45,486 nucleotides of DNA from Gemmatimonadales bacterium (GTDB taxonomy: Bacteria > Gemmatimonadota > Gemmatimonadetes > Gemmatimonadales > GWC2-71-9): contig JAICLE010000018.1 in the NCBI GenBank assembly GCA_025927545.1, positions 1-45,486 of the forward strand. Direction: 5' to 3'. Position 1 is the stretch's first letter. Each line of letters starts with the position of its first letter. The translations under genes and the position numbers were made by a program. Positions 1,231-31,068 of the stretch are shown piece by piece. The notes beneath the pieces are model-generated. The model was given only the letters and a program-made list of their open reading frames with translations. It was not told where the DNA came from and did no database searches.

Positions 1231-2976
1231 CTACCAGTCCCGGGCGCCAACCGCGCCCTTCGGGCTCGGGCGGCCCTCGTGGCTCGCCAACTGCTCCCGC
1301 TGCACCGACTCCAGCAGTTGCCGGGCCTGGTCGGCATCCAGCTCCTCGACCGACTCGCCTTCGCCCGCGCCGTAGCCTCCGCCGGCCATGGCGCCCGATG
1401 CGTTGTCCGGGTTCCCCTCGTAACCGGGGACGTTCATGTTGCCCCGCCCGTAGTCGCCGTTCCGGCCGCGGCCGGAAGAGCCGCCCGACGTGCGGTCGTC
1501 GGTGAGCCGCTTGACCGCGATCTCCAGATTCCACTTCGCGTCCGCGTCGCCCGGCTGGAGCCGGAGAGCCTCCTCGTACGCCGCGATGGCGTCGAGCAGG
1601 AGTTGGCCCCGCTCGGGCGCATCCTCGGCCGCGCGCACCAGCGCGTTCCCCAGGTTGAACACGCTCGGCTGCCGGAGGGCCGGCGACGTGGCGGCCCGGC
1701 GGTAGCGCACGGCCGCGTCCTCGTAGCGCTTGAGGCGATAGTACGCATTTCCTGCCCTGTACGCCCGCGCCGGCGTACTGTCCGCGGCCAGCGCCTCATC
1801 CAGCGCCTTGGCGGAGGCAGCGAAATCGCCGGACGCGTAGAGCCGCTCACCCTTCCGTGCGTCCAGCGCACCGCGCGAGCACCCCGCACCGAGCAGCAGG
1901 AGGAGAAGCGGCAGCACGACCGCGGCCGCGGCGCGCGCGGGCATCGCGGCCCTGAGCTGGACCGGGCGGCGGCGGCGGGCCGCTGTGGCCGCGAGCGCCG
2001 CATCACCCAGTAGCGCCCCCACCGCCAGCGCGAGCGGCCACTGGAAGCGGTCGGCGCGCTCCTTCGACTGCTCCGACGCGAGCGTGCGCGTCCGCACCGT
2101 GGCGAGCGCGGCCTGCAGGCTGCTCCGGTCGGCCGCGCGATCGGCCCGGGCGTAGGCGCCGCCCGTGAGCCGGGCCACCTGCCGGAGCCCGCCCTCCTCG
2201 AGCCGCGACATGGCGATGCGCCCGATGTGGTCGCGGTGGAACTTCTCCGGGGCCTCCGAGCTGTCCGCCGGCACCGGGCCGCCGCCGGTGGTGCCGACGC
2301 CGAGCGCGAAGACCGGGATCCCCTCCTCCCGAAGTCCGGCCGTAGCCTTCACGAGGTCGCTGTGCTCCTCGGTCTCGCCGTCGCTCACGAGCAGCACCGC
2401 GCGGTGCCCACGCTCGCCCTCGTGCTCGAAGATCTTGGCGGCGGTCGCAAGGGCGTTGCCGATATCCGTGGACGGGTCGCCGAGATCGTCGGGGCTCGCC
2501 GCGTCCAGGAACAGCTTCAGAGCCGCCTGGTCGGTCGTGAGCGGGAGCTGGAGGAAGGCGCTCCCGCCGAAGACGACCAGCCCGACCCGGTCGCCGCGCT
2601 CGGCCGACACCGTCTCCCACGCCGCTCGCCGGGCCACCTCGAGCCGGCTCGGCGCCACGTCGGTGACGGTCATGGAACGTGAAAGGTCGAACACCACCAG
2701 CACGTCCCGGCCGGTGCGGGCGAACTCGGCCTGTCGCTCGCCCAGTTGGGGACGCGCGAGCGCCAGAAGCCCGAGCGCCACCGCGGCCACCTGCAGCCAC
2801 CGGCGCCGGACGACCCGTCGCTCGTCCGCGAGCGTGGAGCCATGCGCCAGCACCGCCGGCTCGCCGAACTCGCGCAGCTCGGCCCGCCGGCGCCGCTCCG
2901 CCCGCAACAGCGTTCGGCCGATCAGCGGGACGGCGACGAGCGCCACCAGCAGCACCAGCGGCCAGGCGAAGCTCAC
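1231..2976 (-). CDS. BatB-BatC fusion: VWA membrane protein with TPR lipoprotein-like C-terminal half
   Basis: This 581-residue frame joins two proteins that are usually separate in Bat (aerotolerance-type) operons. Residues 1-340 are BatB-like: membrane segments near 5-20 and 60-75, a von Willebrand A domain with MIDAS residues DLSRS (97-101), and a C-terminal membrane segment near 312-332. Residues from about 345 look like a free-standing lipoprotein: Met345, a hydrophobic stretch, the lipobox LGAGC with Cys366, then TPR-like repeats (KGERLYASGDF, RAYRAGNAYYRLKRYEDAA, AIAAYEEALRLQPGDADAKWNLE) and a Gly-rich tail. The ATG of Met345 is at 1944, preceded by CAGGG, so internal initiation of a separate BatC is possible. 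The start overlaps the batA stop by four bases. In the family these proteins form a membrane complex working with MoxR; the substrate is unknown. Confidence 0.88.
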   Translation of the reverse strand: MSFAWPLVLLVALVAVPLIGRTLLRAERRRRAELREFGEPAVLAHGSTLADERRVVRRRWLQVAAVALGLLALARPQLGERQAEFARTGRDVLVVFDLSRSMTVTDVAPSRLEVARRAAWETVSAERGDRVGLVVFGGSAFLQLPLTTDQAALKLFLDAASPDDLGDPSTDIGNALATAAKIFEHEGERGHRAVLLVSDGETEEHSDLVKATAGLREEGIPVFALGVGTTGGGPVPADSSEAPEKFHRDHIGRIAMSRLEEGGLRQVARLTGGAYARADRAADRSSLQAALATVRTRTLASEQSKERADRFQWPLALAVGALLGDAALAATAARRRRPVQLRAAMPARAAAAVVLPLLLLLLGAGCSRGALDARKGERLYASGDFAASAKALDEALAADSTPARAYRAGNAYYRLKRYEDAAVRYRRAATSPALRQPSVFNLGNALVRAAEDAPERGQLLLDAIAAYEEALRLQPGDADAKWNLEIAVKRLTDDRTSGGSSGRGRNGDYGRGNMNVPGYEGNPDNASGAMAGGGYGAGEGESVEELDADQARQLLESVQREQLASHEGRPSPKGAVGARDW

Positions 2977-3968
2977 GGCAGGCTCCGGAGCCGGGTGGCG
3001 CCAAGCAGGAGCCCGGCGGTGAGGAGCACCAGGCCCGGCGTGAGCGCCCAGCCGTAGAGCTCGCGGTAATCCCGCGTCTCGCTGATCCGGACTTCCTGGC
3101 GTTCGATCGGGTCGATCGCCTGGAGCACCTCCCGGAGCGTCGCCGGGTCGGTGGCTCGGTAGTACTTCCCGCCGCTCCGCTCGCTGATCCGACGGAGGAT
3201 CGCCTCATCCCCGGTGGTGAGCCGGTCGGGCGTGCGGCCGCCCCAGCGCCAGATGAACTGCCGGTCTGCCGGCGTGGTGTCGGCCGCGCTCACGCCGATG
3301 GTGTGGATCCGGACGCCGATGGCACGGGCCGCCTCGGCCGCCAGGAGCGGTCCGGGCTTCCCGGTGTTGTTGGCGCCGTCGGTGATCAGCACGATGACGC
3401 TCGCCTTGGGCGGCAGGTCCTTGAGCTGCGCCAGACACATCGCGAGCGCGGTGCCGATCGCGGTGCCGTCGGGGAGCATGCCGATGTCGATCCGGCCAAG
3501 CATGCGCTGCAGCAGCTCGGCATCCGGCGTGAGGGGCGCCTGGAGGAAGGCGCGTCCGGCGAAGATGACCAGGCCGAGCAGGTCGCCCTGGCGCTCGCGG
3601 GTGAAGTCGGCAAGCACCCGGCGCGCCACCATGAGTCGGTTCCCGGGTTTGAAATCGCCGGCCTTCATGCTGCTCGAGATGTCGAGCGCGAGCATGATGT
3701 TGCGCGAGCGGCTCCGGATCTGCCGCACCTCGTGGGGCACCTGCGGCCGCGCGAGCGCCAGGATCAGGCAGGACACGCCAAGCAGCCGGAGCACGTCGGG
3801 CAGCCAGCGCCAGCGGGTCCGCGGGCTGACCGGTGCCCCCGCCAGGAACACGAGGCCGGGGAACCCGATCCGCTCCGCGGGCGCGCGGCGCCGGCCGCGC
3901 CAGAGAATCCAGGCCCACGCCGCGGGCACGAGGAGGAGCAGCAGCCAGGCCGGGTCAGCGAATCGCAT
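2973..3968 (-). CDS. batA: BatA-like von Willebrand A domain membrane protein
   Basis: This 331-residue protein has an N-terminal aerotolerance (BatA) hydrophobic region (AWLLLLLVPAAWAW), a second membrane segment near 57-75, a VWA domain and a C-terminal membrane helix (ALTPGLVLLTAGLLLG). The MIDAS motif DISSS is at 96-100, a conserved threonine lies in PDGTAIG, and the aspartate in LITDGANN completes the usual metal site. Its stop overlaps the next start by four bases, and its own start overlaps the preceding BatD-like gene by 14 bases, so translation is probably coupled across the operon. The family acts at the inner membrane, downstream of MoxR ATPases, in envelope stress or metal-dependent assembly; the exact role here is inferred only from family and context. 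Confidence 0.92.
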   Translation of the reverse strand: MRFADPAWLLLLLVPAAWAWILWRGRRRAPAERIGFPGLVFLAGAPVSPRTRWRWLPDVLRLLGVSCLILALARPQVPHEVRQIRSRSRNIMLALDISSSMKAGDFKPGNRLMVARRVLADFTRERQGDLLGLVIFAGRAFLQAPLTPDAELLQRMLGRIDIGMLPDGTAIGTALAMCLAQLKDLPPKASVIVLITDGANNTGKPGPLLAAEAARAIGVRIHTIGVSAADTTPADRQFIWRWGGRTPDRLTTGDEAILRRISERSGGKYYRATDPATLREVLQAIDPIERQEVRISETRDYRELYGWALTPGLVLLTAGLLLGATRLRSLP

Positions 3969-4947
3969 CGGCCACCGCCTTCTCCGCCGGGCGCGCCGCG
4001 GACCAGTCCGCGAGCAGCTCGCGGGCCTCCGCGAGAAACGCTCCGGCCGTCCCCGGGTCCGGCCGCCACCGGGCGAACTTCACCAGATCCGCGTCCCCGA
4101 AGACGTCCTCGAACCGCCCCCCCGTCCGATCCGACAGGAGCCCGGAGGGCAGCATCCAGCGCAGCTCCGAGGTCGTGCGCTCGCGCGCCGGCACCCCCCG
4201 GCTCTCCAGATAGTCACGGAGCGCGTCGGTGACCGCCTGGTAGTGCCGCGCCACGTCGCGCTCGCTCCACCGCTCGCGCTCGACGGCGGCCAGCCGGGCC
4301 ACGGCGATCTCATACGGATCGGGGGGCGCGGGCGGCGGCCCCTCCGGCGCGGCGGCCGGCGCCGGTTGCGGGGCGTGCCCGCGCCGCACGCGCCACGTGA
4401 TCCAGCCGGCCGCGAGCAGCGCCGCGGCCCCGGCGACGAGCACCAGCGCCCCCGGCCCGCGCGGCGGTGGCGGCTCCTTGATGTCCCGCAGGGTGGCGGA
4501 CGACGGGTCCGCGATCAGCGGCACGATCTCCACCGACGCCGTGTCGCTCGGCAGCGTGCCGCGCGACAGCCCCTTGACCGAGCGCATGAACGGGAGCTCG
4601 AATATCGGCACCGGCTGGCGTCCGGTACGGTAGAAGGCGATTCGCGCGCGGCCGACGAAGATGCGATTCGAGTCGCGCTGCAGCTTGTCCACCTGGAGAA
4701 CGCGTACCCAGTCCGGCGTGCTCGCCGCGGGCCGCGGGATGGTGTCGAACAGCAGGTCCCGCTCGTCGAGATGCAGGCGGAAGCGAAGGGTCACCGTGTC
4801 GCCCACGGTCGCGCTGTCCGTCTCCGGGATCACCTCCCAGTGCTGGCCGCGGACCTGCGCAGCGAGTGGGCGCCGGATGACGGGACCGAGCGTGACGAGC
4901 AGGATCGCGATCATCCCGAGCCCGGCGCAACGACCGACGCGACTCAT
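3955..4947 (-). CDS. BatD/DUF4381-like membrane protein
   Basis: From ATG at 4947 the product is 330 residues with an N-terminal signal segment (MIAILLVTLGPVIRRPLAAQ). An extracytoplasmic beta-rich domain follows (SATVGDTVTLRFRLHL is reminiscent of BatD Ig-like domains), then a single transmembrane helix near residues 170-190 (ALVLVAGAAALLAAGWITW). A proline/alanine-rich linker leads to a helical cytoplasmic end (AVARLAAVERERWSERDVARHYQAVTDALRDYLESR). An upstream in-frame extension to 5157 exists but would overlap DUF58 deeply and lacks a signal. The chosen ATG forms an ATGA overlap with the DUF58 stop. Position between DUF58 and BatA is typical of Bat/MoxR clusters. It may present or tether the VWA proteins; that is inference. 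Confidence 0.85.
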   Translation of the reverse strand: MSRVGRCAGLGMIAILLVTLGPVIRRPLAAQVRGQHWEVIPETDSATVGDTVTLRFRLHLDERDLLFDTIPRPAASTPDWVRVLQVDKLQRDSNRIFVGRARIAFYRTGRQPVPIFELPFMRSVKGLSRGTLPSDTASVEIVPLIADPSSATLRDIKEPPPPRGPGALVLVAGAAALLAAGWITWRVRRGHAPQPAPAAAPEGPPPAPPDPYEIAVARLAAVERERWSERDVARHYQAVTDALRDYLESRGVPARERTTSELRWMLPSGLLSDRTGGRFEDVFGDADLVKFARWRPDPGTAGAFLAEARELLADWSAARPAEKAVADAIR

Positions 4948-5825
4948 CGCCACAGCATCCTCTCCCGGCGCCGGAAGAAACTCAGCAGCGGCTCCGCGTA
5001 GGAACGCCCGGTCTCGAGCCGCAGCAGGTCCGCGTTCCGCTCCCGGAGCCCGCGCTCGAGCCCGCGATCGAACTCCTCCGAGCGGCGCGCGAACCAGGCC
5101 CGGACGGCCGCGTCCGACGTGTCGATCCGCCGCCAGGCGCCGCTCTCCGGATCCCACAACGTCACCAGCCCCGCCGCGGGGAGCGCCCGCTCACGCGGGT
5201 CCACCAGTTGGAGCGCCACCACGTCGTGTCGCCGAGCCAGCCGGCCGAGCACCGGCTCGTAGCCAGCGGCCATGAAGTCGGAGAGGATGAACAGCACCGC
5301 GCGCCGGCGGAGCGTCGGTTCGAGCTCGGCGAGCGCCGCGCCCAAATCGGTGCCGGTGCCGGCCGGCTCGAAGGCGAGGAGCTCGCTGATGAGCCGCAGC
5401 ACGTGGCGTCGTCCCTTGGCGGGCGCGATGTGATGCTCGATGCGGTCGGTGAAGAACGCGGCGCCCACCCGGTCGTTGTTCCGCGCCGCCGCCAGCGCGA
5501 GCACGGCGGCCACCTCGGCGCCCAGCTCGCCCTTGGTGCGGACCCGGCTGCCGAAGCGGCCCGAGGCGCTGAAGTCCACCAGAAAGACCACCGTGAGCTC
5601 GCGCTCCTCCAGGTAGCGCTTGACGTAGGCGCTCCCGAGTCGCGCGGTCACGTTCCAGTCGATTGTGCGGACGTCGTCGCCCGGCTGGTACTCGCGCACC
5701 TCGGCGAACTCCACTCCCCGGCCGCGGAACGCGCTCGAGTACTCGCCCGCGACGATGTCCCGCACGAGGTGGCGGGTGGTGATCTCGATCCGCCGGACCT
5801 CACGGGTGACCTCGTCCGGCGTCAC
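4944..5825 (-). CDS. DUF58 domain protein of the MoxR cluster
   Basis: This 293-residue soluble protein is a clear DUF58 member. The signature YQPGDDVRTIDWNVTAR lies at about residues 46-62 and is followed by a VWA-like core with DFSAS (84-88), a MIDAS-type metal motif, and ILSDF later. DUF58 proteins almost always pair with MoxR AAA+ ATPases and may act as adaptors or clients. Here the start overlaps the moxR stop by four bases and the end overlaps the BatD-like start by four bases, so the three genes are certainly co-transcribed. No membrane segment is visible. Confidence 0.92.
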   Translation of the reverse strand: MTPDEVTREVRRIEITTRHLVRDIVAGEYSSAFRGRGVEFAEVREYQPGDDVRTIDWNVTARLGSAYVKRYLEERELTVVFLVDFSASGRFGSRVRTKGELGAEVAAVLALAAARNNDRVGAAFFTDRIEHHIAPAKGRRHVLRLISELLAFEPAGTGTDLGAALAELEPTLRRRAVLFILSDFMAAGYEPVLGRLARRHDVVALQLVDPRERALPAAGLVTLWDPESGAWRRIDTSDAAVRAWFARRSEEFDRGLERGLRERNADLLRLETGRSYAEPLLSFFRRRERMLWR

Positions 5826-6847: not shown

Positions 6848-6874
6848 GCGGGGGAATCTAACGGCGGACGGACA

Positions 6875-6995
6875 GTCAGGCGGCCACGCGGTCAGGCGGT
6901 CACGCGGTCAGAACTGTGCAGGGGGAGTTCGCGAGTCACCGCAGGGGCCGCCCGCCCGCCCGGCCGCCTGACCGCCCGACCGCCTGACCGCCCGC
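6875..6995. repeat. Inverted tandem repeats (GGTCAGGCGG type)
   Basis: The left side holds a tandem run built on cggtcaggcggtcacg (6875-6910). The right side, 6961-6995, carries the complementary run built on ccgcctgaccgccc. The arms can pair into a long imperfect hairpin spanning about 120 bp with a loop that includes cttgcgagt-type unique sequence. It lies just past the stop of the small gene at 6999 and before moxR. The architecture (complementary tandem arms around a core) echoes the elements at 9452-9740 and 24988-25246, though the unit differs. It may act as a terminator or insulator. Confidence 0.6.
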
Positions 6996-9450: not shown

Positions 9451-9451
9451 G

Positions 9452-9740
9452 GGCGGAAGAAGGGAAGGACGGAAGGAGGGAAGGAGGGAACGTTGCATCC
9501 GGGCGGCACTGTCAACCCGAGCAGCGCGAGGGATCTACACGGCCGGAATCGAGCCCCGTCCCGGAGGTCGAACTCGGCCCGGCCGTGTAGATCCCTCGCT
9601 CCGCTCGGGATGACAGCCCCGAATCATCGGCTCTTCGGCTCGCCGCCTGCCGTCCTTCCATCTCTCCGCCCTTCCGCGCTTCCGTCCTCCCGTCTCTCCG
9701 CCTTTCCGTCCTTCCACCGTTCCGTCTTTCCGTCTTCCAG
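9452..9740. repeat. Palindromic repeat element, copy 1, with purine/pyrimidine flanks
   Basis: The core 9509-9616 is an imperfect palindrome: about 38-bp arms beginning ctgtcaacccgagcagcg and ending cgctcgggatgacag around a 32-bp centre. The shared unit extends left to 9491 (cgttgcatccgggcggca). The left flank 9452-9490 is a purine run of ggaagga-type units; the right flank 9651-9740 is a run of tccttcc/tccgtc-type units, its complement. A second copy in opposite orientation lies at 24988-25246. It sits between two convergent genes, and its right flank runs into the 3' end of the FAD oxidoreductase gene. Confidence 0.85.
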
Positions 9741-23315: not shown

Positions 23316-24329
23316 ATGCGGGTACGACTCAAACCGATCAACGAGCAGGTCGTCGTCATCACGGGCGGCTCGAGCGGGATCGGCCTGGCGACGGCGCGAC
23401 GGGCCGCACGGATGGGCGCCCGCGTAGTGCTCACCTCGCGCGACGCGGTGGATCTGGAACAGGCCGTCGACCGGATCCGCGCCGACGGAGGCGACGCCAC
23501 GTACGTGACCGGCGACGTCGCCGATCTGGAAGCGATGAAGCGCGTGGCCGAGACTGCGGTGCGCGAGTTCGGCACGCTGGATACGTGGGTGAACAACGCG
23601 GGTGTCTCGATCTACGGCCGGCTGGAGGAGGTCGGCCCCATGGATGCGCGGCGGCTGTTCGAGACCAACTACTGGGGCGTGGTGCACGGCACGCTCGCCG
23701 CCTTGCCCCATCTCCGGGCCCGCGGCGGCGCGCTGATCAACGTGGGCAGCATCCTCTCGGACACCGGCTATCCCCTGCAGGGCCACTATGCGGCCAGCAA
23801 GCACGCGGTCAAGGGGTTCACGGACTCGCTCCGGCTCGAGCTGGAGCAGGAGGGCGCGCCGATCTCGGTGACCCTCATCCAGCCGGCTGCAACCGACACG
23901 CCCTACCCCGAACACGCCAAGAGCTATCTCGGCGTGGAGCCGACACACGTACCGCCGGTCTACGCACCCGAGGTCGTGGCGCGGGCCATTCTGAGGAGCG
24001 CGGAGCACCCGGAGCGAAACGTGCTGGTCGGTGGCGGGGCCAAGCTGTTCAACACCGTCGAGCGGTACGCGCCCCGGTTGGGCGACCGGTTCAAGGAGGC
24101 GACCGCGTTCACCGGCCAGCGCACGGAGCGGCCGATCGAGGAGCGCGATATCCTGTTCGGGCCGCGTCCGGGCGACGGACGGGAACGTGGCCACTACCAG
24201 GGGCACGTGATGCGGACGAGCGCCTACACGCGCGCGCGGCTTCACCGCGGCGAGACGCTGCTCGCGCTGGCGATCGCCGGCGCCGCCGTGGCGCTGCTCG
24301 ACCGGGCAGGCGTCTTCGGTGGGGATTGA
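23316..24329 (+). CDS. SDR family oxidoreductase
   Basis: The 337-residue protein is a classical short-chain dehydrogenase/reductase: TGGSSGIG cofactor motif at 16-23, NNAG in the middle, and the catalytic YxxxK within GHYAASKHAVKGF. It has a C-terminal extension of about 90 residues (RPGDGRERGHYQG, then a hydrophobic ALAIAGAAVALLDRAGVF), as in a subset of SDRs seen near membranes. ATG 23316 is preceded by GGGAGG. The substrate is unknown. Its stop lies inside the start of the UdgX gene, so the two are co-transcribed. Confidence 0.92.
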   Translation: MRVRLKPINEQVVVITGGSSGIGLATARRAARMGARVVLTSRDAVDLEQAVDRIRADGGDATYVTGDVADLEAMKRVAETAVREFGTLDTWVNNAGVSIYGRLEEVGPMDARRLFETNYWGVVHGTLAALPHLRARGGALINVGSILSDTGYPLQGHYAASKHAVKGFTDSLRLELEQEGAPISVTLIQPAATDTPYPEHAKSYLGVEPTHVPPVYAPEVVARAILRSAEHPERNVLVGGGAKLFNTVERYAPRLGDRFKEATAFTGQRTERPIEERDILFGPRPGDGRERGHYQGHVMRTSAYTRARLHRGETLLALAIAGAAVALLDRAGVFGGD

Positions 24330-24987
24330 CGCGGCGTCGCAGCCGGCGACCGGCTCGGCGGCGGACTTCGTCCCGCCGCACCCGACGCTCTCCCGCCTCC
24401 GCGAGGCCGCGGCGGGCTGCCGCGGCTGTCATCTGTGGGTCGACGCCACGCAAACGGTCTTCGGCGAGGGTCCCCGCACGGCCGATCTGATGCTCGTCGG
24501 CGAGCAGCCTGGCGACCAGGAGGACCGGCAGGGCCACCCGTTCGTGGGGCCCTCGGGGCGCCTGCTCGACGAGGGGCTGGAGGCAGCGGGGATCGACCGG
24601 CGCCGGGTCTACGTCACCAACGCGGTGAAGCACTTCAAATTCGTCCGCATCGAGTTGACCCGGCGCCGGCTACACAAGAAGCCGAACGCCGCGGAGGTGC
24701 GGGCGTGCCATCCATGGCTGGAGGAGGAGATCCGGCTGATCAAGCCTCGCGTGATCGTGACGCTCGGCGCCACAGCCGCGCAGGCTCTGCTCGGGCCCAA
24801 GTTCAAGGTGACCGAGCGGCGGGGCCTCGCGGTTCCGTCCGAGTGGGCCGAGACCGTGATCGCGACGGTCCACCCGTCCTCCGTCCTGCGGGCGCCCGGT
24901 GACGCCCGTGAGGAGGCGCGGCGTGCGTTCTTCGCGGACCTGAAGCGCGTGGGAAAGCTGCTGAGGAATGGCGGAAAGGGGGAATGA
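24319..24987 (+). CDS. UdgX-type uracil-DNA glycosylase
   Basis: The 222-residue product starts at GTG 24319, overlapping the SDR stop by 11 bases. It is a family-4-like UDG with the UdgX signatures: motif A GEQPGDQED at 61-69 and the loop RRRLHKKPN at 115-123. In UdgX proteins the histidine equivalent to H119 forms a covalent bond with uracil-containing DNA. VTNAVKHFKF precedes this loop and VHPSSVLR forms the C-terminal motif. Only three cysteines are present (C34, C37, C130), so the fourth ligand of the expected iron-sulfur cluster is not obvious. It acts in DNA repair in the cytoplasm. Its co-transcription with an SDR is not explained. Confidence 0.92.
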   Translation: MGIDAASQPATGSAADFVPPHPTLSRLREAAAGCRGCHLWVDATQTVFGEGPRTADLMLVGEQPGDQEDRQGHPFVGPSGRLLDEGLEAAGIDRRRVYVTNAVKHFKFVRIELTRRRLHKKPNAAEVRACHPWLEEEIRLIKPRVIVTLGATAAQALLGPKFKVTERRGLAVPSEWAETVIATVHPSSVLRAPGDAREEARRAFFADLKRVGKLLRNGGKGE

Positions 24988-25246
24988 CGGGAGGGAAAGA
25001 CGGAAGGACGGAAGGACGGAAGGACGGAAGGACGGAAGGGGGCGCGGGCACCGGCACTGTCATCCCGAGCGCAGCGAGGGATCTGGCCGGGCCGAGGTCG
25101 ACCTCCCGGACGGGGCTCGATTCCAGCCGAGTAGATCCCTCGCGCCGCTCGGGATGACAGTGCCGCCCGGATGCGACGTTCCGTCCTTCGTCTTTCCGTC
25201 CTTCCGTCCTTCCGTCTTTCCTTTCTTCCGTCCTTCCGTCCTTCCC
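24988..25246. repeat. Palindromic repeat element, copy 2, with (ggaaggac)n flanks
   Basis: The left flank 24988-25040 is nearly perfect tandem ggacggaa units. The core 25057-25160 is a palindrome whose outer 20 bases (25053-25072) pair perfectly with 25146-25165. The right flank 25181-25246 is tandem tccgtcct units, complementary to the left flank. The core matches copy 1 (9491-9616) in reverse orientation, including its gtgccgcccggatgc border. It lies between convergent genes and touches the stop codons of both, so it probably acts as a shared terminator or is a mobile non-coding element. Confidence 0.9.
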
Positions 25247-25247
25247 C

Positions 25248-27842
25248 CTATTCCCCCCCGTCCTCCTGCCTGAGCGCCGCCACTGCGGCGCTCACGTCGC
25301 AGGCCATGGTACGTTCCCGCCGCATGGCCTCGACGAGGGCCTCCGCCTGCTTGATCTGGAGCGCCAGCGCGCCGGACCGCTCGATTACGTGCTCCACCAC
25401 GGCGCGCTGCGCCTGGAGCGATTCCACCGTCGCGCGGACCTCGAGCGCCAGCGCTTCCGCCCGCGCCAGCCGCTGCTCGGTGCGCTCGAGCTGACGCCGG
25501 CGCGCCTCGAACCCGTGCAGCGACTCCTCCGTCGACTTGAGCTGCGCGTGGGTGTCCTGCAGCAGCTCGTGGGTGTCCTCGATTTCCCGCCGCGCCGCGC
25601 CGATCGCCTGCGCGTGCTCGACCGACCGCTCGGCCAGGTCGAAGACGTGCTTGACCTGCGCCTCGAGCGCGTCCACCGCGCCCTGCCGCGCGAGGGTCTG
25701 CTCCAGGGCCCGGGCCGCTTCCGCCTGGGCCGAGTCCCACTGCGCGAGCAGTCCTTCGAACTGGGTGAGCTGGCGCTCGACGGGTTTGAGCGCGTTGGCG
25801 CGCGATCCGAGCTGGTCGGCGAGCCGGTCGAGCCCGCCGGCCTGGCTTTCCGCCTTCTGCAGCATGGCCCCGATGCCACGGGAGAGCTCTTCGAGCCGCT
25901 GCGCCATCTCCGCGGATTCCTGCCGCAGCGCCGACGCGCGGTTCAGGTGCTCCGTCGCCTTGTCGAGGGCGCCCTGCCGCTGCTCGAGCTCCTGGCCCAG
26001 TACGCGGATCCGCTCCTCGAGCTCGTCGAGCTGGGCGGTGCGGCCCTCGAGGGCACGCACCGATCCATCCACGCTCAGGAGCCGCCGCTCGGCGGCGCCG
26101 ACCGAGTCGGTGACGCTCCCGATCGTCTCGGCGACGCGATGGGCCGCTTCCGCGTGGCCGGCGATCTGGGTGAACCGCCCCTCCGCGCCATCCATCCGGA
26201 CGCGGAGTCCCTCGGCTCGATCCTTGAGCTCCGTGCTGAGGGCGCCGAGCTCGAGCAGGCGGCCGTGCATCTCCTCGATCGCGCCACGCCGGGTCTCCAC
26301 GTCGGTCATCCCCGCGCGCACCTGCTCGACCTCCGCGCGGATGCGCTCGACCGCCGGCTCCAGCCCGCGGAGCTCCTGCACCTGCGCTTCCACCTTGCGG
26401 GTCCACTCCTCGGTGCTGGTGAGCCGGCTCTGCGTCTCGGCCTGGCTCTCGCGCACGCGGATCATCTCGCTCTGGGCCAGCCGCATCTGCTCGAGCCCGT
26501 CCGCGGTCATCTCGTGGGTGCTCTTGAGCGTGGCGAGCTGCCGCACGGCGTCGTCGAGCTGCGGCCGGAGCGCCTCCACCCGCTGCATGCGCTCGGCCGT
26601 GTCACCCGCCAGCGCCTCGAGCCGCTCGGCGTCCTCGCGCATCGTGCCGATCCGGCGCGCTTCGTCGGTCAGCCGCGAAAGCTCCTGCGAGAGCCCGGCC
26701 GACTGCTCGTTGAGCGTGCGCACCTGCGCCTGGACCGCCGCGGCGCCCTGGCTCGCGGCGTCGAGCACGGCGAACCGGGCCTCGCACTCCTTTACCGCCC
26801 CGCGGAGGTCGGCCACGCGCTCGCTGACGGCGTGCAGCCCGCGGTTCTCGAGCTCGAATCCCTCGCTGCTCTTGCGCATCTGCTCCCGCAGGTCGCCCAG
26901 CGCCTGCCGGGCCGCCTGCTGCGCCATCTCCGCCTCCGCCTGCGCGGTCTGCAGCTCCTCTGCGCGCGCCATCACCTTCACATTGAGCGCCTGCACGTCG
27001 GCGATCTTGGTCTCGATCGCCCCGAAGCGCCGGATCTGCTCCTCCTGCCGCCGGAGCCACGTGTCGAGCTCGCGATCCATCACGGTGAGCTTGCTGATCT
27101 GGCCCGCAGCCCGGTCCACCGCCTCGCGCTGCTGCTCGAGCGAGGTGGACTTCTGCGCCAGGTGGTCGGCCAGCGACTTGATGACGGCGAGCTGGTGCTG
27201 AACGGCCGGGATGGACTCCGTGGCCTGGGTGAGCGGGTCGAGCGAGCGTTCGACCGATTGCAGCCGCCGCTCGGTCTCCTCGAGCCTGCCGGCCGCGGCC
27301 TGGTGCTCCTGGTCGATCGCCTCGAGCCGGGAAATGGTGTGCCGGTGGGCGGTGAGCGCGTCGTCGTGCTGGGCCCGGATCCGGCCGACGCCCTCCGACA
27401 TCTCGGCAATCTGCACCCGCAGTGTCTCGGTCTCGCTCCGGACCGCGGCCACCGGCCCCTCGAGGCTCAGCACCCGTTCGACATCGTCGCGCAGGTGGAG
27501 GGCGCTTTCGACCTTGTGCCCGAGGTCGCCCATCCGATCGTGGATGCGGTCCATCTCCGCGCCTGCATTCACCAGCCGCTCCGCCTGCTGTTCGGCCGCC
27601 GCAAGCCGGGCGCCTAGCGCCTCGAGACCCTCGACCTGCCGTTCCACGGCCGCGCAGCGCTCCCGAAGGGTGTCCAGCTCCGCCGCCCGCTCCATCACGG
27701 GGGCCAGCAGGCGGAGCTGCTCCGCGGCTGCCTCTCCCCGCGCGACGAGCGCTTCGAGCGCGGCCGTGACATTCGTCCCGCTCTCGTCCACGGCGACCAC
27801 GGAATCATCGTTGCGACGGCGGCCCTTCAGGAACGTGACCAT
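25248..27842 (-). CDS. Large coiled-coil protein, 864 aa
   Basis: The protein begins MVTFLKGRRRNDDSVVAVDE and is then almost wholly coiled coil from about residue 30 to 860. There are long heptad-like runs of Ala, Glu, Leu, Gln and Arg, few aromatic residues and almost no proline or cysteine. There is no signal peptide, membrane helix, Walker motif or globular head, so it is not an SMC ATPase. ATG 27842 has GGAG upstream; the frame continues upstream but with unlike composition. The C-terminus ends at the palindromic repeat. Such proteins can act as cytoskeletal or polar scaffolds; the role here is unknown. Confidence 0.85.
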   Translation of the reverse strand: MVTFLKGRRRNDDSVVAVDESGTNVTAALEALVARGEAAAEQLRLLAPVMERAAELDTLRERCAAVERQVEGLEALGARLAAAEQQAERLVNAGAEMDRIHDRMGDLGHKVESALHLRDDVERVLSLEGPVAAVRSETETLRVQIAEMSEGVGRIRAQHDDALTAHRHTISRLEAIDQEHQAAAGRLEETERRLQSVERSLDPLTQATESIPAVQHQLAVIKSLADHLAQKSTSLEQQREAVDRAAGQISKLTVMDRELDTWLRRQEEQIRRFGAIETKIADVQALNVKVMARAEELQTAQAEAEMAQQAARQALGDLREQMRKSSEGFELENRGLHAVSERVADLRGAVKECEARFAVLDAASQGAAAVQAQVRTLNEQSAGLSQELSRLTDEARRIGTMREDAERLEALAGDTAERMQRVEALRPQLDDAVRQLATLKSTHEMTADGLEQMRLAQSEMIRVRESQAETQSRLTSTEEWTRKVEAQVQELRGLEPAVERIRAEVEQVRAGMTDVETRRGAIEEMHGRLLELGALSTELKDRAEGLRVRMDGAEGRFTQIAGHAEAAHRVAETIGSVTDSVGAAERRLLSVDGSVRALEGRTAQLDELEERIRVLGQELEQRQGALDKATEHLNRASALRQESAEMAQRLEELSRGIGAMLQKAESQAGGLDRLADQLGSRANALKPVERQLTQFEGLLAQWDSAQAEAARALEQTLARQGAVDALEAQVKHVFDLAERSVEHAQAIGAARREIEDTHELLQDTHAQLKSTEESLHGFEARRRQLERTEQRLARAEALALEVRATVESLQAQRAVVEHVIERSGALALQIKQAEALVEAMRRERTMACDVSAAVAALRQEDGGE

Positions 27843-29616: not shown

Positions 29617-31068
29617 ATGCCGCGCCTCTCCTGTCGCACGGGCCTGTTCACGCTCGCGCTTCTCACCGTGCCCTGCGCTCTGCCCGCCCAGGACTCGCCC
29701 GACGAGCGCTCGGCGCGCGCGATCTTCGCCGAGCTTGTGGGCATCAATACCACCCACGAGCACGGGAGTACCACGCTGGCGGCGCGGGCGGTCGCGCGGC
29801 GACTGGTGGCGGCCGGGCTGCCGGCCCGGGACGTCGTCGTGGTCGGCGCCTCGCCCAGGCGGCAGAACCTCGTCGCCCGCCTCCGGGGAAGCGGGGCGCG
29901 GCCGCCGATCCTGCTCCTGGCACACCTCGACGTGGTCGAGGCGCGGCGTGAGGACTGGTCGCTCGATCCGTTCACCCTGACCGAGAAGGATGGCTACTTC
30001 TACGGCCGCGGGTCGAGCGACATCAAGGACATGGGGGCCATCTTCGTACAGACCCTCATCCGCCTCAAGCGTGAGCGGGCGCCGCTCGACCGCGACGTGA
30101 TCCTGGCGCTCACGGCCGACGAAGAGGGGGGCGACGACAACGGCGTGCAGTGGCTGCTGGCCAACCGGCGGCCGCTCATCGAGGCGGCCTACGTGATCAA
30201 CGGCGACGGCGGCGACCCGATGATGCGGGACGGCCAGGTGCACGCGCGCAACGTGCAGGCGGCCGAGAAGGTGTACATGGACGTCCGGCTCGAGGTGGAC
30301 AACCCGGGTGGGCACAGCTCGATGCCGGTCAGGGACAACGCGATCTACCGGCTCTCCGCCGCGCTCTCGCGGCTCGGCGCGTACCAGTTCCCGATGCGGC
30401 TCAACGAGATCACGCGCGCCTACTTTGCCCGGGCGGCGGCGGCAGAGCCCGATACCATCGCGGCGCGGATGCGGATGGTGGGCGAGAGCGGCGATACTGC
30501 CGCCATGCGCCGGCTGGCCGCCGGCTCGGCCTGGTACAACGCCGTGCTCCGCACCACCTGCGTGGCCACGCGCCTCGAAGGGGGCCACGCCAACAACGCG
30601 CTGCCGCAGACCGCCGCCGCCAATGTCAACTGCCGGCTGCTGCCGGACGAGCATCCGGACGCCGTGGTCGAGACGATCCGCCGGGTGGTGGACGATACGG
30701 CCGTGCAGGTGACGGTGACCTCACCGGCGGTGCCATCGCCCCCCTCGCCGCTGATTGCCGAGGTGCTCGAGCCGGTGGACAGCATCACCGCATCCATGTG
30801 GCCGGGCGCCGCCGTCATCCCGAGCATGGAGACCGGCGCCACGGACGGCCTTTTTCTGCGCAACGCCGGCATTCCGGTATATGGCGTGAGCGGGGTGCCG
30901 CTCGAGGACGGCGATGTACGCGCCCATGGACGAGACGAGCGGATCCGGGTGGAGGCCTTCTATCAGGGGCTCGAATTCACCGAGCGGCTGGTCAGAGCGC
31001 TCGCTTCGGACGGAAGGACGGAAGGGCCGACGGGCGGAAGCATCACAGGAAGAGCCGCCACCGACTAG
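29617..31068 (+). CDS. Secreted M20 family metallopeptidase
   Basis: The 483-residue protein has a signal peptide ending ALPAQD near residue 25. Metal and catalytic motifs are clear: LLLAHLDVVE (first His and Asp), YGRGSSDIKDMGA (bridging Asp), LTADEEGGDD (general base Glu and metal Glu), and GGHSSMP in the lid domain. Members are zinc carboxypeptidases or aminoacylases. A GTG three bases upstream is an alternative start. The final residues SDGRTEGPTGGS are encoded by ggacggaagg-type repeat sequence and are probably not part of the fold. It is convergent with the amidohydrolase gene, 15 bp away. Confidence 0.93.
   Translation: MPRLSCRTGLFTLALLTVPCALPAQDSPDERSARAIFAELVGINTTHEHGSTTLAARAVARRLVAAGLPARDVVVVGASPRRQNLVARLRGSGARPPILLLAHLDVVEARREDWSLDPFTLTEKDGYFYGRGSSDIKDMGAIFVQTLIRLKRERAPLDRDVILALTADEEGGDDNGVQWLLANRRPLIEAAYVINGDGGDPMMRDGQVHARNVQAAEKVYMDVRLEVDNPGGHSSMPVRDNAIYRLSAALSRLGAYQFPMRLNEITRAYFARAAAAEPDTIAARMRMVGESGDTAAMRRLAAGSAWYNAVLRTTCVATRLEGGHANNALPQTAAANVNCRLLPDEHPDAVVETIRRVVDDTAVQVTVTSPAVPSPPSPLIAEVLEPVDSITASMWPGAAVIPSMETGATDGLFLRNAGIPVYGVSGVPLEDGDVRAHGRDERIRVEAFYQGLEFTERLVRALASDGRTEGPTGGSITGRAATD
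31007..31042. repeat. Short ggacggaa-type repeat inside the M20 3' end
   Basis: Two and a half copies of ggacggaa-like sequence occur in the last codons of the M20 gene, in the same purine orientation as the left flanks of the two large elements. No palindromic core or complementary right flank follows; the next gene begins immediately. It looks like a minimal or decayed member of the same repeat class. Confidence 0.55.

Follow-up and report, generated by a model that had tools for sequence, protein, structure and literature searches.

What is the large palindrome that fills the space between two converging genes at positions 24990–25246 of the window (the whole stretch of DNA analyzed here, 45,486 nt), and how did a dispersed hairpin come to be enclosed by short tandem repeats on opposite strands? 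We find that the element is a nested palindrome composed of two separable repeat families, whose arms have a strict polarity, whose relatives are concentrated at the 3' junctions of genes, and whose arm units differ between species at orthologous junctions.

Structure of the element and of its second copy

The element (below, copy 2) is located between a gene of the uracil-DNA glycosylase (UDG) superfamily (24319–24987, plus strand; Pfam PF03167) and a convergent gene encoding a long coiled-coil protein of unknown function (25248–27842, minus strand; gene call and Pfam); genes were called with a home-made codon-model finder, so that start codons are approximate. Its core at 25058–25159 is a REPIN-like head-to-head pair of TGTC-tagged REPs (TGTCATCCCGAGCGNAGCGAGGGATCT) from the CGTC superfamily (below, REPIN), enclosed by (GGACGGAA)n to its left and by (TTCCGTCC)n to its right. 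The left arm, about six tandem GGACGGAA units (24990–25039, plus strand), begins 2 bp past the UDG stop codon and is followed by border alpha GGGGGCGCGGGCACCGGCAC (25038–25057, plus strand), REP 1 TGTCATCCCGAGCGCAGCGAGGGATCT (25058–25084, plus strand), a spacer of the long-spacer subtype (25085–25132), the inverted head-to-head partner REP 2 (25133–25159, minus strand), border beta GTGCCGCCCGGATGCGACGT (25160–25179, minus strand), and the right arm of about eight tandem TTCCGTCC units (25179–25246, minus strand), which terminates at the 3' end of the convergent gene. The arms were identified by TRF and the array catalogue, and the REPs, by REP pattern search. The 20-nt REP cores are 50 bp apart, compared to 31–33 bp in most REPINs of this genome.

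The inner arms (25052–25084 and 25133–25165, 33 nt each) are 94% complementary, and the perfect 20-bp outer stem described in the earlier note is confirmed, as CGGCACTGTCATCCCGAGCG at 25052–25071 pairs fully with 25146–25165. The flank arrays yield a best gap-free pairing of 47 nt with 91% complementarity. The same note described the flanks as almost perfect tandem arrays; the left flank does consist of GGACGGAA units and the right flank of complementary ones, but the latter has just 83% matches according to TRF. Compared to window shuffles, both components are strongly overrepresented, with four matches to the REP pattern vs. 0.12 expected and 24 matches to the array 16-mer vs. 0.55 expected. 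The predicted RNA fold has the energy of –194.6 kcal/mol vs. –119.8 kcal/mol for shuffles (z = –15), and the fold of the other strand, z = –13 vs. shuffles. The Rfam scan of the window produced no match at the element; the only match is a SAM_alpha riboswitch (RF00521; 1108–1181, minus strand) upstream of a gene for a PLP-dependent enzyme.

Copy 1 spans 9451–9738 and is composed of the same parts with the core inverted: a left arm of GGAAGGAC units (9451–9490, plus strand), the beta border to the left of the REPIN (9491–9509), the REPIN (9510–9615), and a right arm of CCTTCCGT units (9646–9738, minus strand), overlapping the C-terminal codons of a convergent oxidoreductase ORF. The core spacers of the two copies are homologous if one of them is taken in reverse complement, and the border GTGCCGCCCGGATGC changes sides, from the right in copy 2 to the left in copy 1, so that the two cores have opposite orientations, as had been proposed. 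At 9624–9738 the right arm of copy 1 encodes the C-terminal tail of a putative protein resembling FAD-dependent amine oxidases, with the stop codon located past the array, toward the REPIN.

Two more arrays are present in the window. A third tandem-armed palindrome, with unit GGCGGTCA and without a REPIN (6863–6994), sits between two co-directional genes and is absent from the orthologous junction in two genomes of relatives (G002 and G001). Two to three GGACGGAA units at 31008–31031 are found in the final codons of an M20 peptidase gene, with no opposite arm detected in the short convergent junction.

The REP core and its possible mobilizer

The genome containing the window (G000; 3.48 Mb in 181 contigs, 91% completeness, the window being contig 46) has 86 REP matches and 209 array matches, which bears out the suggestion that the element is dispersed. 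REP features were tallied for 83 REPs with at most two mismatches in the fetched loci, excluding a few at contig ends.

REPs of the CGTC superfamily end on one side in an unpaired tetranucleotide, CGTC (or TGTC/CCTC), and have complementary residues A and T at the first two stem positions, and a short unpaired tail that in most, not all, cases fits CCA; head-to-head (HH) dimers predominate, TT and HT dimers being rare (Di Nocera et al., 2013, PMC3733652). The same paper gives the stem of 8–9 bp and the loop of 4–5 nt. In our tally 59 of the 83 REPs have the tag TGTC and 4 have CGTC, the first two stem residues are AT in 73, and 27 of 28 close neighbor pairs are head-to-head, with the tags facing outward. 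The likeness extends to the location, mostly at convergent and co-directional junctions, and to the fact that no dedicated transposase has been found. On the other hand, the stem here, ATCCCGAGC/GCGAGGGAT, comprises nine positions, two GA mismatches (GA/GA) included, and closes with an apparent 3-nt loop, GNA, in place of 4–5 nt, the tail in most copies reads CTT, CTA or CTG and does not fit CCA, and Gemmatimonadota are not in that paper's list of phyla with CGTC repeats.

In form the core also resembles REPINs (Bertels and Rainey, 2011, PMC3116915), but its tag is TGTC rather than the GTAG of RAYT-mobilized REPINs. Y1_Tnp (PF01797) has no match in this genome, nor in the other REP-rich genomes G002, G003, G005, and G009 (the genomes searched being drafts with 81–97% completeness), and is present in genus members with few or moderate numbers of REPs (G001, G004, G006, and G008). 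A RAYT-driven REPIN was rejected on the grounds of this absence from the REP-rich genomes. A literature search by the literal repeat units produced no match, and a search with two REP fragments, only unrelated ones among the matches listed.

Outside some full REPs (L165, L166, L191, L193, and L227:9700–9790) the 5' half of the REP (about 17 bp, starting with TGTCATCCCGAGCG) is repeated outward in tandem, which hints at recurrent tandem growth at the hairpin base.

Two repeat families and their composite

The core REPs and the flank arrays are two distinct repeat families. In the sample of ten genomes of the genus and in other genera of the family three combinations are observed: REPs without GGACGGAA arrays in G002 (139 REPs), G003 (74), and G009 (92), arrays without REPs in G014, G027, and G029, which belong to other genera of the family, and both together in G000 and G005. 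The 0.95 Mb fetched from the genome of the window contain inverted array pairs both with and without central REPs, in agreement with the earlier suggestion that the flanks expand separately from the core. Periodic runs of 7–9 bp are found in 34 of 78 outward REP flanks vs. 15 of 206 intergenic control stretches.

At many junctions of this genome the parts follow in the order array, border alpha, REPIN, border beta, array. Border alpha, GGGGGYGCGGGCACCGGCAC, recurs at 18 REP flanks, and border beta, CATCCGGGCGGCAC or GGTGCCTTCGGGCGGCAC, has 14 occurrences, both in either orientation and within this species. The shared border that had been claimed for the element is thus a feature of one composite subfamily, seen in this species alone among the DNA fetched; in the DNA obtained from relatives the composite with alpha and beta borders did not turn up, and REPINs are nested there in other arms (GACGGTCA in G002, CGGAACGG or CGGACGGG in G003, and GGAATGAC in G005). 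The only border common to nearly all REP copies is the REP tag CTGTCAT, many REPs being flanked by GGCGGTCA, GTGAGCG, repeated half-REPs, or nothing.

The composite has probably itself spread in this species. Since its outer ends are variable arrays abutting gene ends, no target-site duplication could be defined, and no empty site could be aligned. As neither a Y1 transposase nor a target-site duplication is available, its mobility is judged from the copy number and the shared borders.

Polarity of the arms

Tandem repeats of period 8 are concentrated in intergenic DNA, where they constitute 106 of 223 repeats with periods 5–12 in 77 kb, compared to 80 in the much larger genic remainder. Several unrelated units are present in the genome of the window: GGACGGAA, GGCGGTCA, CACAGAGG/CACGAAGG, GGTGAGC, and GTCGTGA. 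The arms built of them are oriented in the same way. For the 64 purine-rich arrays, the partner is inverted and to the right in 45 cases, inverted and to the left in three, and direct and to the right in one; the pattern of pyrimidine arrays is the mirror image. Adjacent GGACGGAA arrays are arranged as plus, then minus in all 27 pairs, and the purine-rich arm comes first in all 62 scored loci, representing five unrelated families of 7–9 bp units. Pairs of the CACAGAGG type in six genomes have the same polarity in 39 of 39 cases, with none reversed (whole-genome listing, counted by eye). As the loci from the genome of the window were selected for carrying REPs or GGACGGAA arrays, the less biased evidence for the polarity is provided by the other unit families and by the whole-genome CACAGAGG listing.

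The polarity is affected neither by the direction of the flanking genes nor by that of the core, as the alpha border may be on either side and the arms are always purine-first; the independence from core orientation is what the earlier note had supposed from two copies. Heptamer arrays in L219 (G014; 2771–5269) have nearly balanced purine content, with the left arm slightly pyrimidine-rich, and the purine-first rule may hold solely for strongly biased units.

In the GGACGGAA family the arms match each other within a locus no better than between loci (p = 0.79). This does not support locus-by-locus compensatory evolution of the arms within this family and argues against strong selection for structure at single loci.

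Location and turnover at orthologous junctions

Junctions of 50–500 bp were scored as structured if they had a REP, a tandem-armed hairpin or a simple hairpin. Structured junctions constitute 23 of 38 convergent ones (61%), 51 of 188 co-directional ones, and 6 of 80 divergent ones (7.5%); among REP-bearing junctions 18 of 40 are convergent, vs. 24 of the 313 others. The arms usually begin a few bp from the gene end and sometimes extend into the coding sequence. Arm counts were taken from tandem repeats, as a strict generic palindrome detector favors the REP stem and undercounts the arms. Simple purging of insertions from promoters would equally well account for the low number at divergent junctions.

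The UDG junction, with GGACGGAA arms and a REPIN in the window, has a ACGGAGAGG-armed hairpin without a REPIN in G002. The copy 1 junction, with GGAAGGAC arms and a REPIN in the window, has GGCGGTCA arms in G002 and GCAAGTGACAA arms in G001, and nothing structured was found there in G005 and G007, so the element is not essential at this site. Different tandem units in two species are also observed at orthologous junctions L148/L237, L177/L214, and L197/L227. The same sites in different species thus bear the architecture in different sequence, but some relatives lack it.

The gene order of the 45-kb contig, to which both copies are internal, matches that of contig G002:C119. L149 (G000:C18) and L203 (G029:C119) are 99.8% identical over 13.5 kb in genomes assigned to different genera, meaning that the contig is misbinned in one of the two; given this identity, contig C119 of G029 was not used as independent evidence.

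Possible role and alternative explanations

Chances are about even, in our estimate, that these elements are transcribed bidirectional 3'-end hairpins, of which the REPIN-containing version is a dispersing non-autonomous element. The composite would disperse in a MITE-like manner via a transposase not found here, and the array arms would lengthen and shorten by slippage. Transcription of either flanking gene would produce an RNA with a long hairpin having purines in the 5' arm and pyrimidines in the 3' arm, as under the purine-first rule the RNA of the distal arm is pyrimidine-rich in both directions. As the element reads alike on both strands, it could act as a two-way 3'-end structure, ending or protecting the transcripts and keeping the convergent genes apart.

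Bidirectional intrinsic terminators are likewise palindromes at convergent 3' ends, and the GC-rich predicted hairpin at the gene 3' end, purine-first and pyrimidine-last on both strands, is terminator-like. The differences are the stems of 30–60 bp composed of repeats, the long loops, and the U-tract: the classical one was not found after the hairpin, with just a small internal match inside the arm. The RNA:DNA hybrid is weaker for pyrimidine RNA on purine DNA, and hence the hairpin could release the transcript without a U-tract; in a genome with 71% GC the pyrimidine 3' arm may replace it.

The main rival is that the repeats are selfish or neutral, spreading or arising by slippage and template switching, and survive mainly at 3' junctions because they are purged elsewhere, with no role for the host. 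We regard this as possible, and the data do not separate it cleanly from the two-way 3'-end hairpin. It agrees with the composite having family-specific borders at many sites of one species, with the sporadic presence at orthologous junctions, with the lack of within-locus arm covariation, and with half-REP repeats, which suggest outward duplication as a mutational habit. Taken alone it leaves unexplained the common polarity of all five unit families (convergent pairs of G-rich arrays are also found in Xanthomonas, PMC4692102), and the presence of different unit families at one and the same orthologous junction.

A broader generalization of the two-way 3'-end hairpin would be that the architecture is kept rather than the sequence, so that GC-rich bacteria build such elements with a functional purine-first polarity and a unit that can be exchanged wholesale at a given junction with no loss of the structure; we consider this doubtful. 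If the purine-first rule and unit swapping are general, they provide a sequence-only handle on the role of paired short tandem arrays in several phyla, and on the persistence of CGTC-class REPs without a dedicated transposase.

It is unlikely that the paired tandem 7–9-mers are bound by an IHF/HU-like protein, either nucleoid-associated or acting as a global regulator, which has been suggested for the paired arrays of Geobacter metallireducens. The period 8 favored here fits this suggestion, as do the Geobacter arrays, likewise paired on opposite strands and read as putative IHF/HU sites (PMC2700814), but many unrelated units per genome, differing between species at one junction, are hard to reconcile with a single sequence-specific protein, and depletion from divergent junctions is unlike such sites.

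Both full copies in the window are between convergent genes, the sense strand of each gene being purine-rich, and each array could be an independent gene-oriented 3'-UTR repeat, its inversion merely reflecting gene convergence; this is very improbable and was rejected, as purine-left/pyrimidine-right pairs with both arms are also found between co-directional genes (e.g., L162, L164, L168, and L181). An assembly artefact or contamination of the metagenome-assembled genome, which might be suspected from several contigs ending inside arrays or REPs (L158, L177, L182, and L186) and from the contig shared with another bin, is hardly credible given the internal position of both copies, the gene order common with G002:C119, and the recurrence of the architecture in several separately binned genomes.

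Comparison with known systems

Prior art covers both parts of the element, that is, CGTC REP dimers and the inverted tandem arrays of Xanthomonas and Geobacter; what appears to be new is the nesting, the strictness of the polarity, and the turnover of units at conserved junctions. Some REP dimers of A. variabilis, H. neapolitanus, and T. roseum are inside larger palindromes (Di Nocera et al., 2013, PMC3733652), whereas the surrounding palindromes here are short-unit tandem arrays that vary between species.

As in the elements studied here, short tandem units are paired on opposite strands in Xanthomonas, where, according to PMC4692102, 70–75 cases per genome of two GGGAATC heptamer arrays in convergent (inverted) orientation are found; the arrays are also similar in being intergenic, near stop codons, and rare between divergent genes. 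One unit family per genome is studied there, as G-quadruplex formers, and the available text does not report a central REPIN, in contrast to at least five unit families and nesting here. In Xanthomonas, comparable G4-forming arrays are more frequent sites of transcript start or stop than control arrays are (PMC4692102). The strict polarity is a simple testable rule, which neither the G-quadruplex nor the regulator-site reading predicts for units without G-tracts.

The paired octamer/heptamer sites of Geobacter metallireducens (PMC2700814) are similar in having three to five tandem 7–8-mers on opposite strands at a variable distance. They differ in being interpreted as binding sites of a global regulator, and polarity, orthologous turnover and REP nesting are not described in the available text. 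The class 2 consensus of these sites, TCTCCGTS, resembles the CACAGAGG/CACGGAGG family. A genome from another family of the order (G037) has 186 matches to the CACAGAGG-type octamer pair, far above the genus of the window.
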